Origin: a virus
Length of the DNA stretch: 64,000 nucleotides
Virus record (IMG/VR): IMGVR_UViG_3300022701_000122
Coordinates: 118,758-182,757 of that record
Direction: 5' to 3' (one strand)
A program made the position numbers and the translations under genes. Of the stretch, positions 6,885 through 45,253 are shown one piece after another. How positions within the stretch are numbered: the stretch's first letter is position 1; every line of letters starts with the position of its first letter. A model generated the notes under the pieces. The model did not search any database. It saw nothing but the letters and a program-made list of their open reading frames with translations, and was not told where the DNA came from.

Positions 6885-6939
6885 AGAGATGTTCTCATCA
6901 TTATTTTTTCATTGTTTAATATATAAGGAGAGTTATATT

Positions 6940-9231
6940 ATGACTGTAAAATGTGAAATTTGTGGAAGAGAATTTGAAAAAGTATTGGGTTTATCGAGAC
7001 ATATTGCTCATGCTATTAAAAATGATAATGTACGACATAATGGGATAACTGTAAGAGAATATTATGATAAATATATAAAAATTGATGAGAATGAAGGGAT
7101 ATGTCCAACTTGTGGATCAGAAACAGATTTTAAATCTATGGGGCGAGGTTATTCTAAATATTGTCCAAATAGAAAATGTTTAAGAATGAGTAAAGAAACT
7201 ATAAATAAAAGAAAACAAACTAATTTAGAAAAATATGGTGTTGAAAACCCATTATCAAATAAAGAAGTTCAAGAAAAACGAAAACAAACATTTATTAAAA
7301 ATTATGGAGTAGATAACCCATTAAAAAATAAAGATATTCAAAAAAAAGTAAAAAGGACTTGTTTAGAAAAATATGGTGTTGAAAACCCATTATCAAATAA
7401 AGAAGTTCAAGAAAAACGAAAACAAACAATGGTTAGACGATATGGTGTTGAAATATCGATTCAAAATAAAGAAATAAAAGATAAAATAAAGAAAACTAAT
7501 ATAGAGCGATATGGTGTAGATAATCCTGGAAAGTCTAAACAAGTTCAAGAAAAAATGAAGAAGACTAATATAGAACGACATGGTGTAGAAAATGTGTTTA
7601 TGATAGATTCTTTTCAAGAAAAAAGAAAGAAATCAATGATTAAAAAATATGGTGCAGAATATCCAATTCAAAATAAAGAAATAAAAAATAAAATAAAGAA
7701 AACTAATATAGATCGATATGGTGTAGAAAACCCATTACAAAATAAAGAAATAAAAGATAAAATAAAGAAAACTAATTTAGAACGGTATGGTACTGAATTT
7801 GGTCTTTCTTCAGAAGAAGTAAGAAAAAAAATTGAACAAACAAATACGGATAGATATGGTGTTAAGTCAACTCTTTCAGTTCCAGAAGTTCAAGAAAAAA
7901 TAAGACAGACTAATATTAAAAGATATGGTGTAGAATATCCGATTCAGAATAAAGAAATAAAAGATAAAATAAAGAAAACTAATTTAGAGCGATATGGTGT
8001 AGATAATGTGTTTATGTCTGACAAAATAAAGAAGCGAATTAAAGAAATTAATTTAGAACGATATGGTATAGAATATCCAGCTAAAAACAAAGAAATTTAT
8101 GATAAAGTTAGAAAAACAAATATGAAGAGATATGGAGTAAGAAACTATTCACAATCAAACGAATATAAAGAAAAAATTCAAAAATATTGGTTTAACAGAT
8201 TAATGAGTAATAAAACTATATTATCCAAAGTTGAACCATTATTTACTATAGATGATTTTGATGGTTTTTCAGATGGTCAAGAGTACACATTTAAATGTAA
8301 AAAATGTGATTCTATTTTTAATGGTAGAATAACAAATGGGTTAATTCCAAGATGTTATACATGTTATCCGTCTCATGGTACATCAATAGGTGAAAGAGAA
8401 ATATCTGAATTTTGTGAACAATATACAGAAGTTATAAATAATAGTAGATCTATATTAGAAGATGGAAAAGAAATAGATATATTTTTACCAGAATTTAATA
8501 TTGGTATAGAATTTGATGGGTTATACTGGCATAGTGAATATATTATAAATAAAGATTATCATCTTAATAAAACACTAAATGCTTTAGCTGTTGGGATTAA
8601 TCTTATTCATATTTTTGAAGATGAGTGGTATTCCAAATCAGAAATAATAAAGTCTATGTTGCTTTATAGAATGGGTAAAATAGAAAATAGAATATATGGA
8701 AGAAAATGTGAAATAAGAGAAGTATCTAAAAAAGATGAAATAACATTTTTAGATAATAATCATATAAGCGGATACGTTGGATCAAAAATAGCTATTGGAT
8801 TATATTATGAAGATGAACTTATATCAATAATGACATTTGGTAAATCAAGATTTAATAAGAAATATAATTATGAACTAATACGATTTTGCAATAAATTATT
8901 TACTACTGTTATTGGTGGAGCATCAAAATTATTCAAATATTTTATTTCAAATTATTCTATTTATTCTATTATTTCATATTGTAATATGAGATTTTCTACA
9001 GATGGCTTTTATTCAAAAATTGGGTTTGATTTAATTGATATTAGTAGACCAAATTATTTTTACGTTAATAGTAGTAATATACGTGAATCGAGAATTAAAT
9101 ATCAAAAACACAAATTAAAAGATAAATTAGAGACTTTTGATAATAAATTAACAGAGTATGAGAATATGCAATTAAATGGATATTATAGAATTTATGATTG
9201 TGGAAATTTAGTTTATACATGGGAGAAGTGA
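6940..9231 (+). CDS. Free-standing homing endonuclease, Vsr/EDxHD-like, with 14 YGV repeats
   Basis: The start at 6940 follows AAGGAG. Residues 1-80 form a zinc-binding module (CEIC, a RHIAHA helix, CPTC, YCPNRKC). From about residue 90 to 410 there are 14 repeats of about 22 residues with the core KxTNxERYGVENPxQNKE, a repeat known from phage homing enzymes and probably used for DNA binding. The C-terminal 330 residues hold a CxxC zinc knuckle, then EIDIFLPEFNIGIEFDGLYWHSE and INLIHIFEDEW, which match the Vsr-like EDxHD endonuclease core. It follows the intein-bearing beta-prime gene and a near-relative follows the beta gene. Confidence 0.85.
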   Translation: MTVKCEICGREFEKVLGLSRHIAHAIKNDNVRHNGITVREYYDKYIKIDENEGICPTCGSETDFKSMGRGYSKYCPNRKCLRMSKETINKRKQTNLEKYGVENPLSNKEVQEKRKQTFIKNYGVDNPLKNKDIQKKVKRTCLEKYGVENPLSNKEVQEKRKQTMVRRYGVEISIQNKEIKDKIKKTNIERYGVDNPGKSKQVQEKMKKTNIERHGVENVFMIDSFQEKRKKSMIKKYGAEYPIQNKEIKNKIKKTNIDRYGVENPLQNKEIKDKIKKTNLERYGTEFGLSSEEVRKKIEQTNTDRYGVKSTLSVPEVQEKIRQTNIKRYGVEYPIQNKEIKDKIKKTNLERYGVDNVFMSDKIKKRIKEINLERYGIEYPAKNKEIYDKVRKTNMKRYGVRNYSQSNEYKEKIQKYWFNRLMSNKTILSKVEPLFTIDDFDGFSDGQEYTFKCKKCDSIFNGRITNGLIPRCYTCYPSHGTSIGEREISEFCEQYTEVINNSRSILEDGKEIDIFLPEFNIGIEFDGLYWHSEYIINKDYHLNKTLNALAVGINLIHIFEDEWYSKSEIIKSMLLYRMGKIENRIYGRKCEIREVSKKDEITFLDNNHISGYVGSKIAIGLYYEDELISIMTFGKSRFNKKYNYELIRFCNKLFTTVIGGASKLFKYFISNYSIYSIISYCNMRFSTDGFYSKIGFDLIDISRPNYFYVNSSNIRESRIKYQKHKLKDKLETFDNKLTEYENMQLNGYYRIYDCGNLVYTWEK

Positions 9232-21788: not shown

Positions 21789-21816
21789 GTAAAATCAATT
21801 TTATTTGGAGATCGTT

Positions 21817-23979
21817 ATGAAAGAAATTAGTTTAACATGTCAAGTATGTGGAAAAGTAACTAAAACTGAAAGTGGTCTTGGATTACATATTTCAAGATCT
21901 AAAAAAGATCATCCTACCATTAAAGAATATTTTGATCTTTATATCAAAGAAGAACAAGATGGAATTTGTTCTTTAGATGGCTGTGAAAATAAAACCAAGT
22001 TTAGAAATTTGGTAAAAGGGTATGGTCCTTATTGTTCTCCAAAATGCATGAATAATTCACCGGAGAGAAAGAAAGCTATAAAGGAAGGAGTAAGGAAAAA
22101 GTATGGTGTTGATAATGTATTTCAATCAAAGAAGATTAAAGAAAAAACTAAACAAATGTATTTAGAAAAATATGGTGTAGAACATAATTCTCAACTTAAA
22201 GAAGTAGTTCAAAAAAGAAGAAATACAATGTTAAGAAGATATGGTGAAACTCATTATTTAAAAACAGAAGAGGGAATGGATCGAGTTAGAAAAACCAATT
22301 TAGAAAAATATGGTACTGAATATGTGTTACAAAATGAAGATATTAAAGCTAAAGCAGATGCTACTGTTAAAGAGAAATACGGTGTTGATAATGTATTTCA
22401 AAATGAAGATATAAAAGAAAAATCAAGAGAAACGATACAAGAGAAATATGGTGTTGATAATGTATCTCAAAATGAAAATATAAAAAATAAGAAAAGAGAA
22501 ACAAATCTTAGAAGACATGGTGTTCAACAACCTTTTCAATCTGAAAAAATATGGAACAAAGTTAAACAAACTTGGTTAAGTAAACATGGATTTGATAATA
22601 TATCTAAACTTGGTGAGACAAAAGATAAAAAGAAAAAAACATCTTTAAAAAATCATGGTGTAGAACACCCTCTTCAATCAGAACAAGTTAAATCAAAAAT
22701 GAAACAAACTAATTTAGAAAGATATGGTGCTGTTGCACCTACTCAAAATGAAGGTGTAATGGCTAAAATGAGAGAAAATAATTTGGATAAATATGGAGTA
22801 GAGTATGTATCACAAGTAGAAGAATTTAAACAAAAAAAGATAGAAACCAATCTTGAAAGATATGGTTGTAAAGTACCAACTCAGAATAAAGAAATTATGA
22901 GTAAAGTAATAAGAACACAACATAAGAAATTTTTTAATGAATTATTAAATGGTAATAGATTAAATGATTTATGTATTCCTGATTTTGGATTGGATGATTA
23001 TAAAGGAATAAAATGTAAATACAATTGGATATGTAAAAAATGTAGTAATAAATTTAAAGATCATTTATATAATAATCTTATTCCAAGATGCCCTATCTGT
23101 TTCCCTATATATTCTTCTATGTCAGAAATAGAAGTTCTTGAATTTGTTAAATCTATTTATGATGGAGAAATAATTCCTGGTGATAGATCCATATTAAAAA
23201 ACAGAGAACTTGATATATATCTTCCAGAATTAAAATTGGCTATAGAGTTTAATGGTTTATATTGGCATAGTGAAGGAAGAGGAAAAGACAAAAATTACCA
23301 CATCGATAAAACAAAAAGATGTGCAGAGAAGGGTATTCAGCTAATACATATATTTGAAGATGAATGGAATTATAAACAAGATATCGTTAAATCAATATTA
23401 ATAGCGAAAATGGGATTATGTAAAAATAGAATATACGCAAGAAAATGTGAAGTTCATATTGTAACAAATAACAATGATATATGGGAATTTTATAATGATA
23501 ATCATATTCAGGGTCCAATTCATGGGAATACAACTTTTTCTTTAAAATATGAAAATGAATATGTTGCAATGATGACAATTGGAAAGAGTAGATTTCATAA
23601 AGAAGAAATTTATGAAATTCTAAGATTTTGTGTCAAAAAAGATACTATAGTTGTTGGTGGGTTATCAAAATTAATGAAACAAGTAAGACTTCATCAATTT
23701 GGAAAAGTTATCAGTTATGTTGATTTGAGATATGGAAATGGGAATGGTTACGAATTAGCAGGAATGAAATTTGTTAAATATACTCAGCCAAATTATTTCT
23801 ATGTTCGTAATGGTGATTTCATTAGAGAATCAAGAATTAAATATCAGAAACATAAATTAGAGAAACAATTAGAAATATTCGATCCAGAATTAACTGAATG
23901 GGAAAATATGCAATTAAATGATTTTGATAGAGTATATGATTGTGGGAATAAATTATATGAATTAGTAATAGAGAAATAA
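21817..23979 (+). CDS. Free-standing homing endonuclease, Vsr/EDxHD-like, with 12 YGV repeats
   Basis: The ATG at 21817 is preferred to an upstream TTG because GGAG lies at the right distance. The order matches the enzyme at 6940: zinc module (CQVC, CSLDGC, YCSPKC), 12 repeats of the KYGVDNVxQNE type between about residues 95 and 370, a CxxC knuckle (WICKKC, CPIC), then RELDIYLPELKLAIEFNGLYWHSE and IQLIHIFEDEW. The C-terminal halves of the two enzymes are strongly similar (SRIKYQKHKL, MQLN near the end), while the repeats differ, as expected for enzymes with different targets. The adjacent beta gene is a likely homing neighbourhood. Confidence 0.85.
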   Translation: MKEISLTCQVCGKVTKTESGLGLHISRSKKDHPTIKEYFDLYIKEEQDGICSLDGCENKTKFRNLVKGYGPYCSPKCMNNSPERKKAIKEGVRKKYGVDNVFQSKKIKEKTKQMYLEKYGVEHNSQLKEVVQKRRNTMLRRYGETHYLKTEEGMDRVRKTNLEKYGTEYVLQNEDIKAKADATVKEKYGVDNVFQNEDIKEKSRETIQEKYGVDNVSQNENIKNKKRETNLRRHGVQQPFQSEKIWNKVKQTWLSKHGFDNISKLGETKDKKKKTSLKNHGVEHPLQSEQVKSKMKQTNLERYGAVAPTQNEGVMAKMRENNLDKYGVEYVSQVEEFKQKKIETNLERYGCKVPTQNKEIMSKVIRTQHKKFFNELLNGNRLNDLCIPDFGLDDYKGIKCKYNWICKKCSNKFKDHLYNNLIPRCPICFPIYSSMSEIEVLEFVKSIYDGEIIPGDRSILKNRELDIYLPELKLAIEFNGLYWHSEGRGKDKNYHIDKTKRCAEKGIQLIHIFEDEWNYKQDIVKSILIAKMGLCKNRIYARKCEVHIVTNNNDIWEFYNDNHIQGPIHGNTTFSLKYENEYVAMMTIGKSRFHKEEIYEILRFCVKKDTIVVGGLSKLMKQVRLHQFGKVISYVDLRYGNGNGYELAGMKFVKYTQPNYFYVRNGDFIRESRIKYQKHKLEKQLEIFDPELTEWENMQLNDFDRVYDCGNKLYELVIEK

Positions 23980-32922: not shown

Positions 32923-32939
32923 TATATATTAAGTATTAA
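32923..32939 (+). promoter_or_regulatory. Recurrent motif TATATATTAAGTATTAA (promoter-like)
   Basis: This copy touches the ATG of the next gene at 32939. If it is a promoter, the transcript for that ORF would be leaderless or the ORF would start downstream. Confidence 0.45.
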
Positions 32940-33487
32940 TGGATACGATTCAGAAACGAATCGAAAATGCTATCCATGAGACTAAGCGTCTCTCGAAAGA
33001 AGTCGAAGGATTTCCGACCGACTACTTTCAAAATACGCTTAAGTCTCGCCAACCGGATGGTATCGGTTCGACATTTAATGGGAGAGTCACTGAAGACGAT
33101 CTCATTAATGCTGAATGGAAACCATTTAAACATCCGTCTGTAGCAGACGGATGTACGGCATTCATCACCCATAATTTGGGGGGTAAAGTGGGTGTCGTGA
33201 GGTTGGATGATCTCCCGAATCTAACCGTCATCGAACTCGATGATGGTAAAGAGACGGGCCAAGTATCTGCAGTTGTAGATCGAGAGGATATTGATCTTCA
33301 TCGATATTCTGTCGATTATACTGTGCTGATTCTTGGTCAGGAAATGGAAAGTGAAGTAGTATACACTTTCCATCCCGGAGATCCAGTTTTTCCATCTAAT
33401 GTCTCTTCGGAGATATTGGTTGGTACAATAGTTTTAGTCCAAGAAGCTATATCTCTTGGATTGGAATATTGTAAGATTAGAGGGTAA
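32939..33487 (+). CDS. Unknown protein at the start of a GC-richer island
   Basis: The 182-residue product is acidic and mixed alpha/beta (VGVVRLDDLPNLTVIELDDGKETG, YSVDYTVLILGQEMESEVVYTFHPGDPVFP). The codon use is clearly richer in G and C than in genes before 32900. No ribosome site is visible upstream because the promoter-like motif lies there; translation may be leaderless. No family recognised. Confidence 0.75.
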   Translation: MDTIQKRIENAIHETKRLSKEVEGFPTDYFQNTLKSRQPDGIGSTFNGRVTEDDLINAEWKPFKHPSVADGCTAFITHNLGGKVGVVRLDDLPNLTVIELDDGKETGQVSAVVDREDIDLHRYSVDYTVLILGQEMESEVVYTFHPGDPVFPSNVSSEILVGTIVLVQEAISLGLEYCKIRG

Positions 33488-33715
33488 CTTCTAATCTGAA
33501 AACGTGCTAAATGGTTACTTATAAAGTGTAGCCATCCAATCGCGTAAGAATTGGTAAAAACTTTATACGAGAAGCAAAAAACTCGGCAATGTGAGAAAGC
33601 ATTGAAAAAATCAGTGGAATACCACTATAAAAGTAATGGTTTAGTCAGCCATATATCTAACAAAAATGATACTGGAATATGCTCCAGGGAACACGTTTGC
33701 ATTACGTGTTTTTTA
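33488..33715 (+). ncRNA. Structured gene-free stretch ending in a terminator
   Basis: I see ATGGTTAC/GTGTAGCCAT, CCAAT/ATTGG, CGAG/CTCG, CAATG/CATTG and AGTGG/CCACT hairpins in sequence, plus a possible long-range pairing TATAAAGT with ACTTTATA. The stretch ends with AACACG/CGTGTT (33690-33710) and TTTTT. It may be a 3-prime-derived small RNA of the upstream gene. Confidence 0.4.
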
Positions 33716-33716
33716 T
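33690..33716 (+). terminator. Rho-independent terminator
   Basis: A six-base-pair stem AACACG with CGTGTT around a nine-base loop, followed directly by TTTTATT. It lies just before the next promoter-like motif. Confidence 0.65.
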
Positions 33717-33727
33717 TAAAATCACTA

Positions 33728-33745
33728 TATATATTAAATTCTAAC
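33728..33745 (+). promoter_or_regulatory. Recurrent motif TATATATTAAATTCTAAC (promoter-like)
   Basis: Located between a terminator and the long leader of the DHH gene, the position expected of a promoter. Confidence 0.5.
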
Positions 33746-33890
33746 ATAACGTTGCATATTACGTTTATGAAAATATGCCGTGAGAGACTCCAGCGAAGAT
33801 ATTCTGGGTAAACAGATCTGACAAATCTGGTGACTGAATATTATAAGCACGGAGCATTGGACACGTAAATCCAATGGAGGGAGGATTCTT
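33746..33890 (+). promoter_or_regulatory. Long structured 5-prime leader of the DHH phosphoesterase gene
   Basis: About 145 bases without an ORF. CCGTG (33778-33782) pairs with CACGG (33848-33852) and encloses CAGAT/ATCTG and smaller hairpins, while ATTGGA/TCCAAT lies just before the GGAGGGAGG ribosome site. A regulated leader (riboswitch or protein-binding site) is possible; it matches no riboswitch class I know. Confidence 0.4.
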
Positions 33891-34799
33891 ATGTTGGATA
33901 ATATTTCCAAGATCGTCTGTGGGTTTAAGGTCGATCTTGATATTATCGGTGCTCTTTGGCTTTTAGCTTTTCGTTTCGACGTTAAGGCCGATGCCATTGA
34001 GTTCGTCTTTGGCGATGCAAAGGCTGAAGATCTTTCCGACCCAACCGTAGTTTGTATCGAATGCGGTGGAAGCGGTCGAGTCGATCTGATGAACTTTGAT
34101 CATCATGGCGAAGGATCTGAAGGTCTCGTTTCGGCGACCTGGCAGGCTTATGATAAATATAAGCCAGTCGGTGTCTACACCGAAGATACTCAGCGTATCG
34201 TAAAATACATCGATACGATGGATAGATTCGGCCCGGACGAGATCCGAAAATACTCTATCGGGGAACCCCCGTTCCTCTCCGACATAATTTCCGGTATCTT
34301 TCTGGTTAATCCGAAAGATAACGCGAAAAAGGTCGAAGAAGGGATATTGTTTCTCGACGATATTTCCCGCAGTGGAATTGATCCTTTTGGATCGATGAAA
34401 CTGTTGGTCGATGAAAATGAACATTATGTTCAATTCGTCGATGCACACGCCGAAAATAAACGGCAAGTGCAGAAGGTCGTCGAAAAGGCAACATGGGGTA
34501 AGACAAAGTCGGGGCTTATTATAGCTTCGGTGGAGTCTGGTTTCTTTGGAACCATAGGTGCACTGTATGAAAATGGTGCACAAGTGGTCGTGGCTGTTAA
34601 TCCCAATTTCCAAGGGATTAGAAAGTTTACGGTCGCTGGTAACAAGGGAATCTCCGTTGCCCCCGCTGCTGACGACATCAGTAAAGTCGAAAGTGGTTGG
34701 GGTGGACCGCCAAGTGGCACGATTATCGGCAGCAACCAGAAAAAAGATTCAGAATTGGATCTTGAACTGGTTACGCGGATAGTCGTCTCGGCGATCTAA
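33891..34799 (+). CDS. DHH-family phosphoesterase
   Basis: The 302-residue protein has the DHH motif as NFDHHGEG near residue 68 and a later YIDTMDRFG. Near the end GWGGPPSGTIIGS resembles the glycine-rich loop of DHHA1-type domains. Families with this build hydrolyse phosphodiester or pyrophosphate bonds in short RNA, cyclic dinucleotides or polyphosphate (NrnA, GdpP, exopolyphosphatase types). Its codon use is richer in G and C than that of neighbours. It has a strong ribosome site and a structured leader. The exact substrate cannot be told from sequence. Confidence 0.75.
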   Translation: MLDNISKIVCGFKVDLDIIGALWLLAFRFDVKADAIEFVFGDAKAEDLSDPTVVCIECGGSGRVDLMNFDHHGEGSEGLVSATWQAYDKYKPVGVYTEDTQRIVKYIDTMDRFGPDEIRKYSIGEPPFLSDIISGIFLVNPKDNAKKVEEGILFLDDISRSGIDPFGSMKLLVDENEHYVQFVDAHAENKRQVQKVVEKATWGKTKSGLIIASVESGFFGTIGALYENGAQVVVAVNPNFQGIRKFTVAGNKGISVAPAADDISKVESGWGGPPSGTIIGSNQKKDSELDLELVTRIVVSAI

Positions 34800-34800
34800 G

Positions 34801-35030
34801 AGACGTGATCCAGACCGAAGCGCGGGCCAGAGTGGGTGAAAATCCCATGTACAGATACGCGCTATAAACCCCGCAACCTGCGGGATCTGGCAGTCGGATA
34901 GAGCCACTATTACATTGGCTCGAAAAGGGAAATATGATGAAACCCATCCGACAACCATTTGGGACTATCATGTCAAATCTCAAATGGAAATATATAAAGT
35001 GCAAAGAATACCACTTTATATATTTTTTGT
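34801..35030 (+). ncRNA. Structured RNA with its own terminator
   Basis: The stretch folds into a branched form: CCAGA pairs with TCTGG and encloses AGCGCG/CGCGCT (with inner TGGG/CCCA) and CCCGCA/TGCGGG. GTCGGAT pairs with ATCCGAC and encloses GAGCCA/TGGCTC. CCATTTG pairs with CAAATGG. A ten-base-pair terminator stem ATATAAAGTG/CACTTTATAT (34992-35021) with T-tail ends it. No ORF fits. GGTGAAAATCC in one loop recalls part of the cobalamin-riboswitch core, but the rest does not match. Confidence 0.55.
34992..35030 (+). terminator. Rho-independent terminator
   Basis: Ten-base-pair perfect stem with a ten-base loop and the tail ATTTTTTG. It closes the structured RNA and the DHH unit. Confidence 0.85.
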
Positions 35031-42443: not shown

Positions 42444-42461
42444 TATATATTAAATTATAAT
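42444..42461 (+). promoter_or_regulatory. Recurrent motif TATATATTAAATTATAAT (promoter-like)
   Basis: Located 24 bases before tRNA-Leu with no gene between. This is the best case for promoter function, and it would drive tRNA-Leu and the large RNA region after it. Confidence 0.55.
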
Positions 42462-42484
42462 CAAAGATCAATTTAGATTTTTGT

Positions 42485-42569
42485 GCCGGGATGATGGAAT
42501 CAGGTCTACATATCGGACTTAAAATCCGAGGTCATTGCGACCGTGCGGGTTCGAGTCCCGCTCCCGGTA
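42485..42569 (+). tRNA. tRNA-Leu(UAA)
   Basis: Acceptor GCCGGGA/TCCCGGT, anticodon stem TCGGA/TCCGA with loop CTTAAAA and anticodon TAA, long variable arm, T-arm GCGGGTTCGAGTCCCGC. CCA not encoded. Confidence 0.95.
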
Positions 42570-42589
42570 CTCAATTAATCTTTGATTTT

Positions 42590-44076
42590 ATAATGAGCAC
42601 AATCTTTATTTATCAATATTTAATCCGTTTGGTTGATTCGTGCCGAGTCAAGATTGTGTTCATTATAAACTGATCGAGCAAAACGAGAACATCATGCACT
42701 CGAAAGAGATTGGTGTTCATTCCGTTTACAAACACCGATGCTCGATCAGTTTACTATGAGTACAACGTTATCTGTTGCTTGATGGGGAAGCTATGGCTCA
42801 AGCAACGTATATAAATCTTATAAGGTTTATATATTATGATAACGTTGTATTCATCAATTTAAAGAGATTGAAGATTTTGTTGTTGATTTTCGTGGCAGTC
42901 AATCAATAACGAGATCTTCAACTCTTAATTAGTATATTGTAATATGGTTCCATGCATTTGTCGGATAAAATGTCGTCCATGTAGTGGATGATTAAAGCTA
43001 ATCCGATACAATCATAGTACACGTAAATGTGCATGATTGATGCATTGAGACGCGGCTGTGGTGGTCGTGTCAAAACGGCAGTAAGATGTCGTGATTATTT
43101 TGCGATGAGTGCAGATAATCAAAGATCGGTGATTAATTTACGTTAATCATTGCAATGTGTCATCGGTCATATTCAGGGAGTATTGTCTAACCAACGAGTC
43201 TCCCTGCATGGAATCATATTAGAATATATTAGTCGTCGTCAATCAGCAACTCTTCGCTTTTATGTCATGGGCGTTGAGTGTAAGACTGATTGGCCTGTGA
43301 GTAATCGGATAAATATTAAGGAAGGAGGTGATACCCACATATGAGTTTGATATAACGATAAGATAAGGGCATCGGCGGTTATTATTCATACCGGATGTAT
43401 AATCGCCACAAACGATGGTGCCCGATTTGGTTTCTCAGATGGGGAGATGGTAAAAAGTAGAATACCCACTCAAACTGTCCCATTTCCCCATTTGAGTCTT
43501 TTATATATGTATTAATCTGGTCACAAGTTTGAGAGCTTTACGGTTGCGGCAGACAACCCCTTCTTCTCTCTAATGATTACGATATTATTTAATCCTATTT
43601 CTCGTATCGTAATCATGGCTTGTGATCAGATTAATGCATATATATGCAAATGCTTTGATTTGGGTTCTCTTAATAAGTTCTTAGACCTTGATCGGTGACG
43701 CAAACTGTCAATGTTGGGGAACTCAAATCATTCAATTTATATGTAGTAAACTGATCATGAGACTCGCTTGCATGTATATGGAATATGGTACGCGCATACC
43801 ATCCTCCCACATACATGCCCATGATCAGTTTAGTGTGTATAAGTTATCTTAAATTTTAATATGCCTATGGAATAATCACAGAATCCCTGCCGATTGGCGG
43901 CATTAATGGTTATGGTTATTTCTAAATAAAATAAAAGGGATAGTAAATGAGTCGGTTTCTAACTCCTTTCTGACTCATTTGCGATAGAGATGCATTTATG
44001 TGACGGAATTAATATTTGATGGATTTTAATATCCATTCCACATCTCGTATAAAAATTCCATAGGCATATTAAAGTT
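42590..44076 (+). ncRNA. Large ornate structured RNA region: chain of about 12 long hairpin domains
   Basis: No plausible gene occurs in 1.5 kb. Domains closed by long stems follow one another, most with very short linkers: 42590-42666 (17 bp), 42666-42753 (14 bp), 42756-42854 (17 bp), 42862-42926 (about 25 bp with one bulge), 42940-43221 (17 bp around a multi-branched 248-base interior), 43238-43294 (9 bp), 43367-43423, 43434-43496 (17 bp), 43502-43644 (26 bp), 43656-43730 (14 bp), 43747-43832 (13 bp), 43852-44076 (22 bp). Several contain inner hairpins, such as 43573-43584 with 43605-43616 (12 bp). Nearly all imperfect positions are G-U on the + strand. tRNA-Leu and tRNA-Met flank it. GOLLD and ROOL RNAs of phages occur in such a setting, but I cannot match a consensus. 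Confidence 0.8.
43319..43355 (+). promoter_or_regulatory. Extended Shine-Dalgarno-like segment in an unstructured linker
   Basis: AAGGAGGTGAT (43322-43332) is an 11-base perfect complement to the 3-prime end of bacterial 16S rRNA. Eight bases later ATG 43341 opens only four codons (MSLI, TAA). It lies in the longest linker between hairpin domains. Confidence 0.5.
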
Positions 44077-44102
44077 CAAGATATATTGTAATTTAATTAT
44101 GT

Positions 44103-44179
44103 GGACCCTTCGCCAAGTCTGGTAAGGCCATCGGCTCATAACCGATCATTCGCTGGTTCGAATCCAGCAGGGTCCACCA
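44103..44179 (+). tRNA. tRNA-CAU (Met, or Ile if the C is modified)
   Basis: Acceptor GGACCCT/AGGGTCC, D-stem GCC/GGC, anticodon stem ATCGG/CCGAT with loop CTCATAA and anticodon CAT, T-arm GCTGG/CCAGC, encoded CCA. Sequence alone does not separate elongator Met from lysidine-type Ile. Confidence 0.92.
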
Positions 44180-44369: not shown

Positions 44370-44375
44370 TCAAAA

Positions 44376-44886
44376 ACATGCAGTTAACCAGAAAACCAAT
44401 CAGAAAGGAGGTAACATGATGATAAGAATAAGAGATCATGATAGATAATTTCATTAGGGAGAGATGGGTGGGAAGAGTACAGAGTAGGAGGAAGTAACAA
44501 GATTTATTGTGTTACACGCTTATAATAATAGATATAGGATCTAAGTTATAGATCTGATTTCATACATATCTACGTATTATAAAGCGTGTCGTGAAATACT
44601 CGGAACCTCACCGACTTGGCACATCAATAAGTCCATTGTATTCGGTGTGGGTGGATTGGGGTGGCATATTAATAAAAAATTATATTATTAGTTAGTACTA
44701 TAGAGTAAGTATTTAGTGTACTGATTATATCTAATTTATAAGATTAGATATAATTAAGTTGATCTAAATTAAGATTTAGATCAACATGCGACGGAAAATC
44801 CCGACAAGGACTTCGCATAGTAGTAAGCTGGAACGGTGATATGATTCTGCGATTTATATATTATAGAATAAGCAGAATCATATCAC
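44376..44886 (+). ncRNA. Second structured RNA region after tRNA-Ser
   Basis: No gene of normal size. Hairpins in order: ACACGCTTATAATA with TATTATAAAGCGTGT (44514-44589, one bulge) enclosing GATCTA/TAGATC, CACCGA/TCGGTG, AGTAC/GTACT, ATTATATCTAAT/ATTAGATATAAT (44724-44754), GTTGATCTAAAT/ATTTAGATCAAC (44758-44785), ATGCGA/TCGCAT, and GTGATATGATTCTGC/GCAGAATCATATCAC (44836-44886, 15 bp perfect). AAAGGAGGTAACATG at 44404-44418 opens a ten-codon frame. It may belong to the same transcript as the region before tRNA-Met. Confidence 0.6.
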
Positions 44887-44971
44887 TTTCAGTTATTAAT
44901 ATTTTTTAAAATTTTATTTTTTATTTGAAAAGTAATACGAATAGGACAAATACATAAATTGGGAGATTATC

Positions 44972-45124
44972 ATGGGTTTAGTATTACCATTATTAATTAC
45001 TGGTTCAATATTATGTTTATCTAAAACTTTTAGAAAGGAGGCATCAGAAACAATATTTGGACTTATTGGTCTATCTGATATCTTTGAACGCGAAATAAAA
45101 GATGAAAATTTAAAAGAAGATTGA
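44972..45124 (+). CDS. Small membrane protein (50 residues)
   Basis: GGGAG precedes ATG. The first 15 residues are hydrophobic (LVLPLLITGSILCL), followed by a basic then acidic tail (FRKEASETIFGLIGLSDIFEREIKDEN). It is the first gene after the RNA region. Confidence 0.6.
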   Translation: MGLVLPLLITGSILCLSKTFRKEASETIFGLIGLSDIFEREIKDENLKED

Positions 45125-45253
45125 TAATGATGATTAATTGAAACATCATCATTTATATTGTAAAACAAAGAATCTATAGATGAAATATAAAAAAAATCAC
45201 ATGATAATTTTATTATAGTAAAAATGTAGTAAATATTATTTGAGGAAAATTAT

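Follow-up and report, generated by a model that had tools for sequence, protein, structure and literature searches.

To our knowledge, giant RNAs encoded beside tRNA genes recur in many phages, and their function is unknown. Among the closest described systems, GOLLD and ROOL lie near phage tRNAs, GOLLD bound ribosomes in pull-downs, and a disordered inner linker is present in the cages of both RNAs (PMC12286853). Phage K has abundant lncRNAs adjoining its tRNAs (PMC9241854), and in ICP1 an ORF-less RNA is the transcript of top abundance (PMC7567579).

The window, that is, the whole stretch of DNA analysed here, forms the final 64 kb of virus record G000 (182.8 kb in length), whose genes include those for a multisubunit RNA polymerase, SbcC- and SbcD-like proteins and helicases. 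It contains a spacer (42571–44102; positions refer to the window unless a record or contig is named) that is flanked by tRNA-Leu and tRNA-Met, all co-oriented in a tRNA cluster with a tRNA-Ser beyond tRNA-Met. This location at phage tRNAs is the setting typical of GOLLD and ROOL. Elsewhere in the window, two large genes lying among the RNA polymerase genes (6889–9231 and 21805–23979) gave matches to homing-endonuclease families (DUF7487).

Results

Coding potential and folding of the spacer

The spacer has no credible gene, in agreement with the earlier note, which had described the region as gene-free. No ORF within it exceeds 64 amino acids, its longest stop-free run is 65 codons (95% of shuffles have a longer one), and none of the four spacer ORFs tested gave a Pfam match.

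The minimum free energy of the spacer, −558.4 kcal/mol, lies far below that of dinucleotide shuffles (mean −374.7, sd 11.1, n = 16), giving a z of about −16; an equal-length coding stretch from the topoisomerase gave −2.5. A strand-neutral search, in which G-U and A-C were scored alike, found 12 long helices, against a mean of 1.7 and a maximum of 5 in 60 shuffles. Within these helices the ratio of G-U to A-C is 20:6 (binomial p 0.009; about 1:1 in shuffles). The direction of the imbalance is that of an earlier count of 15 G-U positions to one of the opposite kind, with a milder ratio. Furthermore, the energy gap between the + and − strands is −115 kcal/mol compared with −61.5 ± 6.6 in shuffles, approximately 8 SD beyond composition, such that both folding energy and strand preference of the spacer exceed those of dinucleotide shuffles. 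Both the G-U excess and the energy gap favour the earlier proposal of selection on a + strand RNA, which is the most economical reading of the fold, strand and helix data. Across 4.76 Mb of fetched loci, the spacer has the highest non-coding density of long helices, with 0.87 of an 800-nt window enclosed and 0.52 for the next best.

A GC-rich island with long ORFs (32.4–35.1 kb of the window) likewise reaches z values of −16 to −22, so that folding energy alone is no proof of a non-coding RNA; the case is made by folding energy together with the long uninterrupted stems, the strand asymmetry and the lack of a gene. A structured + strand RNA in the tRNA operon is very probably real.

Two further regions were observed in passing. 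The part of the island at 32939–34960 has a GC content of 0.42–0.50 (its neighbours mostly 0.2–0.3), unusually strong hairpins even within ORFs, and two ORFs lacking family matches, one of which bears a DHH-like motif; the stretch that follows this ORF (34800–34960) is gene-free, apparently hairpin-rich and without a credible Rfam match, and may be another structured RNA. Beyond tRNA-Ser, 44370–45253 lacks long ORFs and holds several hairpins (44722–44886), with a z of −6.5 and no strand asymmetry.

Architecture of the domain chain

Local folding with the base-pair span limited to 420 nt divides the spacer into 13 consecutive domains, most of them closed by stems of 9–29 bp and most separated by no more than 13 nt (Table 1), the long closing stems having mean pair probabilities of 0.77–1.00. 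The chain recognised previously is therefore retained, with its figures of about 12 domains and mostly 13–26 bp stems adjusted. Since a 15-bp stem encloses tRNA-Leu as a first bead, the chain starts upstream of the point given in the earlier note. Its loosest part is the weakly paired stretch 43295–43366, which holds domain 7. Similarity between beads was seen for domains 10 and 12 only (z 3.2 among about 90 comparisons); two differences between their related closing stems are compensated, which is too slight to be taken as covariation. No clear motif common to the beads was found by sequence comparison.

Table 1. Coordinates of the spacer chain, its flanking tRNAs, and the tandem arrays with their associated genes
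Feature	Position	Strand	Description	Basis
tRNA-Leu (TAA)	42485..42570	+		tRNA/Rfam search
tRNA-Met (CAT)	44103..44179	+		tRNA search
Stem enclosing tRNA-Leu	42459..42587	+	first bead, 15 bp (42459–42473 with 42573–42587)	mean pair probability 0.80
Domain 1	42587..42669	+	closing stem ~19 bp	local fold
Domain 2	42666..42753	+	closing stem 15 bp, extendable to 27 bp at the expense of domains 1 and 3	local fold, helix search
Domain 3	42756..42854	+	closing stem 17 bp, two inner hairpins	local fold
Domain 4	42862..42926	+	hairpin ~26 bp	local fold, helix search
Domain 5	42928..43233	+	branched, closing stem 29 bp	local fold, helix search
Domain 6	43238..43294	+	closing stem 9 bp	local fold
Domain 7	43313..43353	+	weak 8-bp hairpin, 25-nt loop	mean pair probability 0.52
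AAGGAGGTGAT	43322..43332	+	domain 7 loop; perfect 11-nt complement of the 16S 3′ tail	0.72 unpaired
Domain 8	43367..43423	+	hairpin with internal loop	local fold
Domain 9	43434..43496	+	closing stem 17 bp	local fold, helix search
Domain 10	43502..43644	+	closing stem 26–28 bp	local fold, helix search
Domain 11	43656..43730	+	closing stem ~15 bp	local fold, helix search
Domain 12	43734..43845	+	closing stem 26 bp, similar to that of domain 10	local fold, helix search
Domain 13	43845..44083	+	branched, closing stem 29 bp	local fold, helix search
Tandem array, this phage	L118:1773–2293 (G000:10272–10792)			motif and fold
Tandem arrays, relatives	L015:2272–2716; L017:2476–2891; L027:1804–2430; L028:2308–2805; L036:1280–2423; L055:2056–2501			
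Ro60-like gene	L118:3768–5393 (G000:12267–13892)		downstream of array	predicted fold
Ro60-like orthologue	L017:3001–4518		downstream of array	

A Shine-Dalgarno sequence in the loop of domain 7

The loop of domain 7 carries AAGGAGGTGAT, which occurs once in the whole window. Downstream of it comes a frame of four codons, ATG AGT TTG ATA TAA (43341–43355), with a long GGAGG-to-ATG spacing of 12 nt. With a pairing energy of −19.0 kcal/mol (gene sites of the window: median −5.85, best −13.7), it is the strongest site of this kind seen in the spacer and ranks third in strength across the 182.8-kb record. Equally strong sites occur about three times per 365 kb of strand, corresponding to a chance of about 1% in 1.5 kb for a match that was noticed post hoc. 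Docking of the spacer RNA on ribosomes through this exposed loop is our best guess at a function, although it is a speculative, post hoc reading and, taken by itself, rather unlikely; a minigene-type effect is another option.

Known RNA families and homologues

At curated thresholds, Rfam recognised only tRNAs in the spacer region. The comparison with the GOLLD (RF02032) and ROOL (RF03087) covariance models that had been proposed beforehand was run, and neither family matched in the spacer even at E values up to 10; nor did either reach threshold in G000 or in 34 further phage records. The ROOL negative is meaningful because the ROOL of L. salivarius was recovered at 130 bits with the same library; this positive control covers ROOL only. 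Weak Rfam matches in the spacer (RNA-OUT, miRNAs) were taken as chance.

No diverged homologue of the spacer was found in the phages, plasmids, IMG/VR records (by neighbour proteins and pattern) and GTDB contigs (by topoisomerase) that were searched. The sequence search of phages, plasmids and 33 relative records gave only tRNAs, short weak matches and an identical copy. This copy lies in a second record (G001, 201 kb), in which the spacer and its surroundings are identical to G000 for 21.8 kb or more; it therefore adds no evolutionary information. Likewise, protein searches with the topoisomerase and a 236-aa gene, and a 22-nt pattern taken from the Shine-Dalgarno loop, returned the identical record only. 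Among the other relatives found, the nearest share about 37–41% amino acid identity in the large subunit of topoisomerase II; an alignment-based search gave relatives at 37–40%, and a scan of GTDB contigs by topoisomerase gave no closer relative. Two candidates were rejected: the sole blastn match below 1e-3 among the relatives, in G026, is 42 nt long, and a peak of hairpin density in contigs of the same group (L039–L041) turned out to be protein-coding.

In another relative, G010, hairpin beads of 116, 70, 235 and 75 nt are followed by a tRNA (L109:9753–10701, − strand). The 235-nt bead has a 31-bp stem, the chain is looser than that of the spacer, and its strand asymmetry is similar (−69 vs −39 ± 7). 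Between two of these beads lies AGGAGGTGAGGATGCGATAA, a strong ribosome site with a two-codon frame, which is suggestive but not more. Taken together, G010 hints that the bead habit, if not the sequence, is common to both phages. A near-perfect non-coding hairpin of 33 bp was also seen in G010 (L023:5146–5216).

Comparison with described RNAs

ROOL, found in phages and prophages and often at tRNAs, is a large and structured RNA like that of the spacer; however, its model has 574 positions, whereas the spacer RNA is longer and unmatched, and the longest helix of a true ROOL is 12 bp (z −3.9), the spacer stems being much longer. The earlier description of a longer RNA resembling beads on a string is thus a fair one. 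GOLLD is likewise a giant phage RNA near tRNA islands but differs in having a 3′ region that is conserved and in assembling as a multimeric cage, while the spacer RNA has about twice its length and consists of sequential long-stem domains. Phage K lnc001 and lnc002 are also long, unclassified, abundant and beside tRNAs, and the ICP1 transcript is a long, abundant and unclassified phage RNA; all three differ in their milder folds (z −6.7 and −2.1 for lnc001 and lnc002, −1.9 for ICP1), with stems of at most 16 bp. As for the Y RNAs and YrlA with Ro60, stem-closed RNAs with tRNA-like modules are found as tandem beads in another part of G000; in contrast, the spacer lacks the core motif of those beads, and Rfam sees no tRNA-like insert in it except the enclosed tRNA-Leu. 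That the spacer RNA is a new class is plausible, and this assignment rests on one sequence.

Probable Y-RNA-like arrays and a Ro60-like gene

G000 and its relatives carry hairpin RNAs in tandem arrays of a kind for which we know of no previous description. The hairpins are built on a fixed core, in the order P1, GACUU, P2, UUUCAGA, variable insert, P2′, nnCUA and P1′. The inserts are often tRNA-like, with D, anticodon and T arms and without a normal acceptor. One module (L118:2151–2293; G000:10650–10792) reads as a circularly permuted tRNA, its order being T arm and 3′ acceptor strand, then 5′ acceptor strand, D arm and anticodon arm. A covariance model, R1, detects arrays in nine relatives, including members outside its training set, and misses the long-insert modules of G000, whose recognition relied on motif and fold; Rfam found no family beyond tRNA in the arrays. 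Both array stems covary, with 70 cells changed on both sides compared with 20.5 when shuffled and 7–13 when slid, a count that leans in favour of the structure to which the alignment was fitted.

Downstream of the array, each of the eight genomes checked (G000 and seven relatives) has an orthologous gene of about 470–540 aa. The Pfam TROVE model (PF05731) misses it. The six best PDB matches to an AlphaFold model of one orthologue (pLDDT 79) are a TROVE domain, Ro60 or Rsr (E 5e-6 to 4e-4, TM 0.40–0.47). No RtcB ligase was found in the phage. The literature mentions TROVE proteins for a few jumbo phages and also phage Y RNAs (PMC7824862, PMC7765460). The arrays are probably Y-RNA-like and, on the predicted fold, apparently form a phage Ro60–Y RNA system together with the Ro60-like gene, a finding that is firmer than our reading of the spacer chain.

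G000 is rich in bead-type RNAs. The spacer RNA is separate from the arrays, since the core P1-GACUU-P2-UNCAG…CUA-P1′ was found there neither by motif nor by R1 at a credible level; a − strand R1 match of 16 bits (43174–43206) is best taken as chance.

Discussion

Beyond the fold, its strand and the absence of a gene and of GOLLD and ROOL, which computation established, the best overall explanation is a giant non-coding phage RNA of about 1.5 kb, processed from the tRNA operon, folded in domains and provided with a Shine-Dalgarno handle; as a whole it has roughly an even chance of being right. A + strand transcript would carry tRNA-Leu, the spacer RNA, tRNA-Met and tRNA-Ser. Maturation of the tRNA-Leu 3′ end would free the 5′ end of the spacer RNA, and the RNase P cut at the 5′ end of tRNA-Met would set its 3′ end. 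Local folding of about 13 self-contained hairpin domains would then give a compact, nuclease-resistant RNA that may accumulate. More speculatively, the exposed, perfect Shine-Dalgarno loop could dock the RNA on 30S subunits, and this docking might tether or titrate ribosomes during infection. The fullest form of the proposal, a new class of giant RNA with about 13 autonomous domains whose Shine-Dalgarno loop holds 30S subunits during infection, is tentative and on balance improbable.

The stems could instead be a string of RNase III sites, cut for processing of the tRNA operon, or decoys that titrate a double-strand RNA nuclease or sensor of the host, their inner sequence being irrelevant. RNase III cuts stems of the 15–29 bp kind, such stems sit here between presumably co-transcribed tRNAs, and the beads are without a clear common sequence motif. 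However, the hairpins far exceed processing needs, domains 3, 5 and 13 are branched where a decoy needs no branching, and no phage-encoded RNase III was detected among the genes; jointly, the two versions have a low but appreciable probability. DNA-level palindromes serving replication, recombination or packaging, and unrelated to RNA, would fit the presence of SbcC- and SbcD-like genes, as SbcC/SbcD enzymes cut DNA hairpins. DNA palindromes have no strand preference, whereas the helices and the energy gap described above show one, and the spacer lies inside a co-oriented tRNA cluster, which makes this reading scarcely probable.

A divergent functional analogue of GOLLD and ROOL, self-assembling into a cage or particle, would share their genomic setting, large size and high degree of structure, and the loose loop could match the disordered inner linker of both cages (PMC12286853). 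Against this stand the lack of a match to either covariance model, stems unlike those of true ROOL, a length about twice as great, and the succession of local domains, among which few long-range contacts are obvious, and we regard such an analogue as doubtful. It is very improbable that the spacer is one more array of the phage's Y-RNA-like modules, in degenerate or specialised form, bound by the Ro60-like protein: array and spacer are both chains of hairpin beads, and the same phage has its array near the Ro60-like gene, but the GACUU-P2-UNCAG core is missing from the spacer, and R1, which is weak on the long-insert modules of G000 too, gave no credible + strand match there.

If the spacer does encode a domain-folded giant RNA, its entirely different build would mean that the niche beside phage tRNAs has been filled repeatedly by unrelated RNAs, and the candidate ribosome-binding loop would offer a testable handle on a giant phage RNA. 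Moreover, the finding of tandem RNAs that mimic tRNAs together with a conserved Ro60-like phage protein bears on the handling of RNA quality or of ribosomes by phages.
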